DNA from: Candidatus Gastranaerophilales bacterium
Lineage (GTDB): Bacteria; Cyanobacteriota; Vampirovibrionia; Gastranaerophilales; Gastranaerophilaceae
Assembly (NCBI GenBank): GCA_944325635.1
Contig: CALVBD010000001.1
Coordinates: forward strand, 744,001-808,000
Length of the DNA: 64,000 bases
Direction: 5' to 3'
Shown: piece after piece, positions 43,612 to 46,111 of the stretch
Layout of the letters: the number at the start of each line of letters is the position of its first letter
Numbering within the stretch: the stretch's first letter is position 1
Made by a program: the position numbers and the translations under genes
Notes under the pieces: generated by a model
Databases searched by the model: none
The model's input: the letters and a program-made list of their open reading frames with translations, nothing else
What the model was told of the DNA's origin: nothing

Positions 43612-44510
43612 TTACCTGCTGTAAACTTCTCCCAGAAAATCCGTCCAGTAATCTTTTCCCTTTTTTGTAGGATGGGTATTTGTTAGTGCGTAATACGCGC
43701 AAGATGTGTTTTTTGAAATGTCGTTTGATGTATTTGAGCAGTATTCCTCTCCTACATTATTGAAATTACCACAGCTGCCAGAAGCACTATTACACGTTGC
43801 AGGATTGTTTTTATGCTCCTGACCTACAGGTATTACAAGTCCATCTGTTGTAAATATAAACATAAAATAATCAATACCGTATCTGTTTGGCTTTTTCTTT
43901 CCGTTTATATCAACACAAATTACAGGCCCGTTCTGACCTGGCTTAGGAACATCATTTAATATCATCAAAGCTCCTGTCATATTATTCTTAAAAGAAGTAT
44001 TATCACATAAAAAAGAGGAATTCCTACCTGAAGAATTTAAGCCGCCTGAAAACTTTTGTCCGTTCAATGTATTCATAGCATAATACGGAATAAAATTACC
44101 TTCGTCATCAGCTGTTCCCATCGAACCTGAAGTTAAAGACTTTGTACCTTTATAATATGAAAATATTTTATTAGAAAATTCTGGTGTTATACCGTTTGGA
44201 TTATCACTCGAACCAATAGGTGCATTACCTACAGCATACTCCGCAACAGATATACCGTAATCCGCCTTAAACAACACTGCAACCTGATTTAATTCTGAAT
44301 ACGTTTTCAAAAATGCGGTATGCAATTCCTTGTTATGAGTCTTATTTATCAGTGCAGGCAATGTCATTGCCGCAACAACTCCGATTATTCCAAGGGTAAT
44401 CAAAACTTCCGCCAGAGTAAATGCGCAAAAACCAGTCCTTAACCCTTTCTCTGAGAGGAATTCAGCTTGCCCCCCCCCCCCGTAAGCACTCTTGTATCAA
44501 GGTTTTTCAT
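43612..44510 (-). CDS. Prepilin-like protein, probably phase-variable through a poly-G tract
   Basis: The mature part FTLAEVLITLGIIGVVAAMTLPALINKT and the Cys-rich end (CNSASGSCGNFNNVGEEYC) match its neighbour at 45308. No methionine start lies near the usual prepilin position; the sequence runs upstream in frame to ATG 44508-44510, which has a perfect AAGGAGG site. Between them are 12 G (44470-44481 as C). With 13 or 10 G the frame is continuous with a 30-residue leader (MKNLDTRVLT, Gly run, QAEFLSEKGLRTGFCA); with 12 it stops after QRKG. So the allele shown is probably OFF. A TTG at 44403 is an unlikely start. Confidence 0.75.
44470..44481 (-). repeat. Poly-G homopolymer, 12 units
   Basis: Twelve G in a row on the coding strand inside the leader of a prepilin-like gene. 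Reading in frame needs 10 or 13. Such tracts typically change length by replication slippage. Confidence 0.85.
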
Positions 44511-44530
44511 ACGTTCCTCCTTTTTATAAC

Positions 44531-44561
44531 ATAAGACTATCTTTATAAAAGATAGTCTTAT
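44531..44561. promoter_or_regulatory. Perfect 14-base palindrome before the phase-variable prepilin
   Basis: ATAAGACTATCTTT (44531-44544) with its exact complement at 44548-44561, loop ATA. It lies ~20 bases upstream of the ribosome site, close to TTGTTATAAT on the minus strand, so it could be an operator or a 5'-leader hairpin. No U-run follows. Confidence 0.55.
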
Positions 44562-44590: not shown

Positions 44591-45223
44591 TTAATGCCTG
44601 TGATGGTGATGTGGAGGAGGTGGCGCCGGATGATGATGATGCGGAGGAGGACATACTATTCGCGGAACAGTTATTATCCTGAGCAGATTAAAGAAAGAAT
44701 TAATATTACGTGCTTTCATATAATCCTGCATAATCTTTTTATACTCACTAAAATTGATTGTATTTGGGTTTGAGCCTTCTTCATTATACATTTGCGAAAC
44801 AAGATTAAAATTATTAACAGTTCTGTTCATTTGATAAGCATTATATGGATACAAATGAGTTGCATTCCAATTGTCTCTATCTGCAGCAATAGTTTCATTA
44901 ACGCTTATCGTTCCGTTTCGTTTGCCTTTGGAATCAATGTCATTAAAAGTCTGCGCAAGAGATTTGTCATAATCGAAATCTGTTACATCACCATACACAA
45001 AGCAATCCGGTACATCATAAGCCGTTGACGGGATATATCCCTGATAATATGTAATCGGAGGAATTGGAGGAGGAGGCATTATGACCTGAGCATCCGCATT
45101 TTCCATAGGCATGGCAGCGGCAAGTGCAATAGCTGCTGCCCCTGCAGTATTTCTCATTGCTTTTTTAGTCTTTTCCCCCGTAAAATGCTGCGGTGTTGTT
45201 ACTCCTATACCTGAAACTTTCAT
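44591..45223 (-). CDS. Protein with EF-hand-like loops and a His-rich tail
   Basis: From the ATG at 45223 the product is about 210 residues. It opens KVSGIGVTTPQHFTGEKTKKAMRN (lineage N-tag), then an Ala-rich hydrophobic segment (AAAIALAAAMPMENADA) that could be a signal or anchor. DIDSKGKRNGTISVNE (about residue 95) has the Asp/Asp/Ser/Gly spacing of an EF-hand loop, and NEEGSNPNTINFSEYKKIM a second one. The last ~20 residues are CPPPHHHHPAPPPPHHHH. Calcium and transition-metal binding are inferred. It lies between two prepilin genes, which may indicate a shared role. Confidence 0.65.
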   Translation of the reverse strand: MKVSGIGVTTPQHFTGEKTKKAMRNTAGAAAIALAAAMPMENADAQVIMPPPPIPPITYYQGYIPSTAYDVPDCFVYGDVTDFDYDKSLAQTFNDIDSKGKRNGTISVNETIAADRDNWNATHLYPYNAYQMNRTVNNFNLVSQMYNEEGSNPNTINFSEYKKIMQDYMKARNINSFFNLLRIITVPRIVCPPPHHHHPAPPPPHHHHRH

Positions 45224-45307
45224 ATACACTAACCCTTATTTTTTGACCACATGATAATAATAGTAAGTAAAGATATTTTTTGTCAGTTCGTAACGAAAAA
45301 TTTACAT

Positions 45308-46111
45308 TTACCTGCTATAAACTTCTCCCAGAAAATCCGTCCAGTAATCTTTTCCCTTTTCAGTAGGATGAGTATTTGTTAGTGCGTAATACGCGCAGGA
45401 TGTGTTTTTTGAAATGTCATTTGACGTATTTGAGCAGTATTCCTCTCCTACATTATTGAAATTTCCACAGCTGCCAGAAGCACTATTACATGTTGCAGGA
45501 TTATTTTTATGTTCTTGCCCGACGGGAATTACTCGTCCGTCTATAGTAAATATAAATGCAAAGTAATCTATTCCATAACGATTCGGTTTCTTTTGTCCAT
45601 TTATATCTACACAAATTACAGGGCCATTCTTTCCAGCCACAGGTGCGTCATTCAAAATCATTAATGCACCTGTCATATTATTCATAAATGCACTACTATC
45701 ACATAAAAAAGATGAATCTCGTCCGTCAACATTTGGACCGCCTGAATAACCGCTGCCATTTAAGTTTGACATTTTATACCATGGAACATAGTTCCCTTCC
45801 TCATCACTAGAACCCTGACCGCTGGAAGTTAACTTTTTAGCCCCCTTATAGTAAGCAAATATTTTAGAAGCCTGCTCCGCTGTAATACCGGCGTTGCCCT
45901 TATCATTATTAATATATTCCGGAACTGAAACGCCATAATCAGCTTTAAACAGCATTGCCGCCTGATTTAACTCAGAATACGTTTTTAAAAACGCGGTATG
46001 AAGTTCTTTATTTCTTGTCTTATTAATAAGCGCAGGTAAAGTCATTGCGGCTACCACACCGATTATTCCTAAGGTTATCAACACTTCCGCTAATGTAAAT
46101 GCTTTTTTCAT
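45308..46111 (-). CDS. Prepilin-like protein, intact copy
   Basis: The 267-residue product starts MKKAFTLAEVLITLGIIGVV with a prepilin peptidase site (A/F) after a 4-residue leader and an N-methylation-type helix. The mature globular part has NNDKGNAGITAEQASKIFAYYKGAKKL, ICVDINGQKKPNRYGIDYF, IPVGQEHKN and the Cys cluster. Its last ~200 coding bases are almost identical to those of the gene at 43612. A regulator starts ~100 bases upstream on the other strand. Probably a minor pilin or pseudopilin-like surface subunit. Confidence 0.85.
   Translation of the reverse strand: MKKAFTLAEVLITLGIIGVVAAMTLPALINKTRNKELHTAFLKTYSELNQAAMLFKADYGVSVPEYINNDKGNAGITAEQASKIFAYYKGAKKLTSSGQGSSDEEGNYVPWYKMSNLNGSGYSGGPNVDGRDSSFLCDSSAFMNNMTGALMILNDAPVAGKNGPVICVDINGQKKPNRYGIDYFAFIFTIDGRVIPVGQEHKNNPATCNSASGSCGNFNNVGEEYCSNTSNDISKNTSCAYYALTNTHPTEKGKDYWTDFLGEVYSR

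Follow-up and report, generated by a model that had tools for sequence, protein, structure and literature searches.

Poly-G tracts in the leaders of prepilin-like genes as probable phase-variation switches in Candidatus Gastranaerophilales

A prepilin-like gene of a Candidatus Gastranaerophilales bacterium carries a run of 12 G between its start codon and its N-terminal helix, and the same architecture was observed at dozens of prepilin loci of this genome and its relatives. We interpret these tracts, with a probability of roughly 80%, as poly-G contingency loci, in which phase variation proceeds by slipped-strand mispairing, the tract lies in the leader segment that prepilin peptidase cuts off, and most copies are OFF and one step from ON.

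According to the proposed mechanism, the G run would slip during replication and gain or lose a base, an inference that accords with the known hypermutability of long poly-G tracts (PMC6321876, PMC4085013). With the right number of G (10 or 13 in the focal gene), translation would run from the ATG at 44510 through a poly-glycine leader into the prepilin, whereas with a wrong number it would end 15–23 codons in. A prepilin peptidase is inferred to remove the leader, tract included, before the F of FTLAEV; because the tract lies within a leader expected to be cleaved, it could vary without touching the mature protein. Assembly of the product into filaments is likewise an inference. Dozens of prepilin genes would be gated in this manner, nearly all of them OFF in each assembly and mostly one G over, and each cell would express a small part of the prepilin repertoire, differing from cell to cell. 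The presumed benefit would be a diversified surface with respect to phage, immunity or attachment sites. Switching itself is inferred, as one assembly per species was analyzed and these were consensus assemblies without reads or expression data.

The focal locus

The focal gene lies on the minus strand of the 64-kb window, which is the whole stretch of DNA analyzed. The earlier note, which was made from the letters alone, had placed an ATG behind a perfect AAGGAGG site, with 12 G between it and the FTLAEVLITLG helix, and direct reading of the letters bore this out (Table 1). The tract occupies nucleotides 30–41 of the open reading frame. It is the sole G or C run of at least 7 in the window, where about 1e-4 runs of 12 G are expected, and G11 is the commonest tract length in the genome.

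Table 1. Coordinates of the focal prepilin locus and its tandem paralogue within the window
Feature	Position	Strand	Basis
Prepilin-like mature part FTLAEVLITLG..., including stop	43612..44421	minus	FTLAEVLITLG from 44421; stop 43614-43612
Linker QAEFLSEKGLRTGFCA, 48 nt, open in the prepilin frame only	44422..44469	minus	Sequence, phasing
TAA closing the 23-aa reading at the assembled G12	44439..44441	minus	Sequence, phasing
TGA closing the 15-aa reading at G11	44462..44464	minus	Phasing; stop there in 27/36 sibling loci
12-G tract (44481-44470); ON frame requires 10 or 13	44470..44481	minus	Sequence, phasing
Start codon (ATG 44510-44508) and initial 29 nt of the leader, MKNLDTRVLT as far as the tract	44482..44510	minus	Sequence, phasing
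Shine-Dalgarno AAGGAGG (44522-44516)	44516..44522	minus	Read from sequence
9-bp inverted repeat AAGACTATC...GATAGTCTT, 5' UTR	44533..44559	minus	Sequence; conserved in two other species
Sigma-70-like promoter TTGAAT-17-TATAAT, 5' of the start codon	44560..44588	minus	10/12 matches, TG before -10
Tract-less tandem paralogue MKKAFTLAEV..., intact, 81% aa identity to focal	45308..46111	minus	PF07963, TIGR02532

Scripted phasing gave an open reading frame of 299 aa with either 13 or 10 G, the leader being open throughout. The reading fell to 23 aa with 12 G and to 15 aa with 11 G. The proposal that only 10 or 13 G bring the start into frame with the prepilin, across a stop-free leader, therefore held, and calling this copy OFF was right for its assembled state of 12 G. 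The same note had described an intact 30-residue leader downstream of the tract; its freedom from stops was correct, but about 30 residues is the length of the whole leader, and the part after the tract has 16 (QAEFLSEKGLRTGFCA).

The promoter in Table 1 was the only good one on the minus strand here. It lies upstream of the ATG, and the transcript therefore contains the tract. A transcription start downstream of the tract, with translation from TTG 44403, had been named as an observation that would refute the reading. As far as the sequence can show, this did not hold: the promoter is upstream of the tract, no ribosome-binding site with a start was found in the focal linker, and TTG 44403 was rejected as a start codon because it falls past the cleavage site and within the hydrophobic helix.

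In the focal ON frame, FTLAEVLITLGIIGVVAAMTLPALI follows Ala, which corresponds to the N-terminal cleavage/methylation motif [G/A]FTLxE and its hydrophobic helix. The residue before F was Gly in 91 and Ala in 60 loci, that is, in 151 of the 164 phased loci described below. The tract-less paralogue scored above the cut-off for both PF07963 and TIGR02532. An AlphaFold2 model built from only 2 sequences placed N-terminal helices before strands, although with a mean pLDDT of 50.9 the model is too weak for a comparison of folds. The genome contains approximately 93 relatives of the focal prepilin, and the tract-gated copies therefore form a large minority of them.

Two features of the neighborhood were recorded separately. 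The last 75 residues of the tandem prepilins (43612-44421 and 45308-46111) are nearly identical, compared to 81% identity overall, and this likeness of sequence suggests a recent gene conversion or partial duplication. The small gene between both prepilins (44591-45229) has a proline/histidine-rich C-terminus (PPPHHHHPAPPPPHHHHRH) and is conserved in relatives; it had no match in Pfam or NCBIfam.

Tracts across the genome and the family

The genome, assembled to 2.0 Mb in 13 contigs, contained 56 runs of at least 8 G and 48 of at least 10 G, compared to approximately 4 and 0.14 expected from base composition. At least 35 tracts were located about 29 nt past an ATG and directly 5' of a prepilin FTLAEVLITLG helix; these 35 are the loci retained by strict phasing. 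They repeated one plan, namely a -10 box, a ribosome site, ATG AAA ACY RTT GMT ATG ACT GRR TTT RC, G11, a linker and the prepilin helix.

The remaining tract genes encoded a rhamnan-synthesis RgpF, a Stealth-type transferase, an FkbM methyltransferase, GT-D-like proteins and a large Chlam_PMP-repeat adhesin, which are the usual phase-variable kinds of surface-structure gene. Two adjacent paralogous GT-D-like genes (L009:2973 and L009:3949) have internal poly-G tracts, one in frame at G10 and the other one G over at G11. The adhesin frame (L010:3028) extends over at least ~985 aa; a G17 tract immediately precedes its signal peptide, and ON would take one more G.

G>=10 tracts were detected in 150 of the 191 family genomes. 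Prepilin-linked tracts, defined by a helix within 45 nt of the tract, were found in 41 genomes of 13 genera, and a reversed control pattern gave zero matches. The same leader was seen in Candidatus Gastranaerophilales and Candidatus Melainabacteria sequences; it was not found in viral contigs. Two sets were used below: 179 tracts, comprising all those that precede a prepilin helix in any frame, and 164 phased prepilin loci from 20 genomes, with tracts of 8–15 G. The leader sequence varied by genus (MKTIDMTGF, MLDMIELQ, MNRFNLCV, MKNLFRDVY), and the tract stayed at a steady position of 17–37 nt past the start, with the 29-nt spacing in 45 of the 164 loci. In a few loci another start could be chosen (e.g. 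ATGTATGAAA), which was rejected by ribosome-site spacing. In one SPAdes-style assembly (G010, CAOJDT contigs), many contig ends lay about 100 nt or less from a leader-tract cassette, and the cassettes therefore probably break short-read assemblies.

Tract length differed between copies and between species. Among pairs with 90–94% identical flanks, it differed in 36 of 62, and tandem copies in genome G033 had G10 and G12; one 99.6% identical pair across two species had G11 in both. Tract state can be partly inherited through gene duplication, so the loci are not fully independent. At the focal site in two other species, the promoter region, the hairpin, the ribosome site, the ATG and the 29-nt spacing were conserved, and the syntenic leader carried G11 rather than the focal G12, a difference between related genomes of the kind that the earlier note had proposed looking for. 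In these two species (L107 and L108, 1250-1500), the leader with G11 runs into a short frame, behind which lie a terminator-like hairpin and a tract-less prepilin. We read this arrangement as the remnant of a tract gene or possibly as a leader that controls readthrough. A third species (G006) lacks the tract gene, and a tract-less allele stood at the neighbor's site with a protein 94% identical to the focal one.

A mutator genotype was rejected as the source of the tract richness. MutS (TIGR01070) was present in the genome and above the cut-off in 153 of the 191 family genomes, and the hypermutability therefore does not come from MutS loss. MutS matches were much weaker in genera g21, g26 and g36 (E ~1e-70 to 1e-179, compared to 1e-280 elsewhere). 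Almost no G tracts occurred in g21 and g36, and g26, with up to 52, breaks this pattern.

Coding constraint and tract states

The linker was free of stops in the prepilin frame in 175 of the 179 tracts, with 18 stops in 3810 codons. The two other frames were stop-free in 28 and 5 loci and held 311 and 408 stops. The ON-frame linkers are therefore coding, although the assembled frame misses them. Only 1 of the 164 loci had an internal start with a ribosome site; with open linkers and hardly any internal starts, translation must therefore come from upstream of the tract.

The same counts bear on the possibility that these are dead genes, frameshifted pseudogenes without switching, for which the OFF state of most assembled copies could be cited. 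We consider this the least credible of the alternatives. Linkers and bodies remain open in one frame, the ribosome site and usually the -10 box are kept, such long G runs would not be retained by chance, and no relaxed substitution pattern with later stops was seen in the majority of copies.

Stops beyond the tract in the OFF frames were also constrained. In genus g1, the stop at +6 to +8 past the tract was kept in 27 of 36 loci, in spite of nine kinds of ON-frame residue there, and the preceding wobble base was T in 29 of the 36. Among 45 linker clusters, 35.4 had a stop within 12 nt in the default (+1 G) frame, compared to 23.6 expected by synonymous resampling. The other OFF frame was enriched as well (18.5 compared to 11.6 expected). 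Whether the default OFF frame has the nearer stop was marginal by cluster (P=0.066); the locus-level value of P=1.6e-5 comes from non-independent loci. The constrained stops suggest that ribosomes do translate the OFF frames.

Next to this constraint stands the state of the switches. The 164 phased loci comprised 20 ON, 106 with one G too many and 38 with one too few. The ON share of 12% fell below the expected 1/3 (P=4e-10), and the deficit persisted at the cluster level (P=1.7e-5); the locus-level P values are optimistic because loci share ancestry. When lengths were shuffled within genomes, about 31.6 ON loci were expected (P ~0.0006–0.0009), and the excess of a single G over the needed count was expected in 81.7, with 0 of 20000 shuffles reaching 106. 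The usual length followed the need: 11 where 10 was needed, 12 (or 9) where 11 was needed, and 10 or 13 where 12 was needed. Genome G033 showed the opposite default, being one G short in 16 of 20 loci, with G10 where 11 was needed. ON genotypes were present in most well-sampled genomes.

A pure mutational equilibrium at G11 was rejected, as length depends on frame within genomes (Fisher P=0.0012 in the genome of the window). We read the distribution as the outcome of two forces, namely selection that disfavors ON in the populations sampled, and slippage that pushes lengths against the ON length, mostly from above. The improvement in likelihood from a fitted mutation-selection chain was clear in g1 (lnL gain 10) and g22 but small in g3, g13 and g41. 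The chain underpredicted how sharply +1 exceeds -1, and this excess remains unexplained. In Campylobacter, longer poly-G tracts are reported to shift to a deletion bias (cited in PMC4085013).

The off-by-one excess could also mean programmed recoding, in which the genes work with the off-by-one length as it stands, and slippage of RNA polymerase or the ribosome on the G run gives a low, constant output of every prepilin. Such recoding would account for the single extra G at differing absolute lengths and for default-frame stops above the synonymous expectation. However, the shift direction is not fixed, as the G033 default shows, ON genotypes occur widely, lengths vary among close copies, and the other OFF frame is likewise stop-enriched; recoding is thus unlikely. 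A programmed frameshift of fixed direction was rejected from G033, and tract lengths also vary within genomes. We allow slightly more room, though still little, for a mixed form in which selection keeps the tracts in one particular OFF frame that meets a stop at once and is a single slip away from ON, as a poised and mutually diverse pilin library; here the default OFF state would itself be under selection and perhaps slightly leaky or recoded, and phase variation would be mixed with programmed slippage.

All of the data are consensus assemblies, and homopolymers are error-prone, which leaves the possibility that most real tracts are in frame and that their lengths were reported one off. We regard such sequencing or assembly error as very improbable. 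It would have to produce +1 in many independent projects yet -1 in G033. In the genome of the window, three internal tracts are in frame, namely those of L009 (its second, G10), L012 (G11) and L039 (G12). Moreover, the constrained out-of-frame stops after the tract suggest that OFF frames are translated, which argues against plain sequencing error.

Phase variation by slippage, as the earlier note proposed, therefore remains the best-supported reading, on the basis of the 35 like loci, the open linkers, the varying lengths and the company of surface genes; switching is still inferred.

Relation to known systems and biological meaning

Mechanisms of this kind are already known. What appears to be new and undescribed is how many prepilins are involved in one genome, the bias toward a default OFF state one step from ON, and the lineage. 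The pilC tract of Neisseria is placed in the signal-peptide region, and to our knowledge no default-OFF pile-up has been reported for it. The pilC1 and pilC2 genes resemble the present loci in having a poly-G/C tract (G 9–20) inside the frame that encodes a type IV pilus protein, switched by slippage (PMC5953494). They are two genes for a pilus-associated protein, whereas dozens of prepilins are involved here. The opa genes of Neisseria form a surface protein family in which each gene is gated by a leader repeat and the mature protein is unchanged; they differ in having pentamer repeats, about 4–12 genes and outer-membrane products. The opa CTCTT repeats are listed in PMC5953494.

The poly-G phasome of Campylobacter is similar in that many poly-G tracts occur in surface-structure genes of a low-GC genome. 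Those tracts lie mostly in glycan and other surface genes, not in prepilins. Campylobacter jejuni has a median of 20 poly-G tracts per genome, mostly of 9–10 G, and the Campylobacter ON share is described as near the level of neutral drift for draft genomes and as higher for closed ones (PMC6321876), compared to 12% here. Orsi et al. 2010 described 5' homopolymers that inactivate a gene by frameshift, such as poly-A in Listeria inlA (PMC2831843). The likeness is the 5' homopolymer frameshift; those off switches differ in being poly-A/T, mostly shorter and in single genes. Earlier work on the order Gastranaerophilales mentioned type IV pilus genes (PMC5877343). In the literature searched, combining phase variation with the order or the class gave nothing relevant: there was no match for the order, and for the class there was one flagellin survey.

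Candidatus Gastranaerophilales are common animal-gut bacteria on a non-photosynthetic side branch of the cyanobacteria, and almost all are uncultured. As nearly all assemblies have them out of frame, most of the tract genes will be overlooked by gene callers or given a wrong start. If the interpretation is true, this lineage, for which the literature searched contains no report of a phasome, has one of Campylobacter or Neisseria scale. With dozens of individually switchable, default-OFF pilins, each population would be a mosaic of surface types, which would bear on phage escape, host recognition and the comparison of strains.
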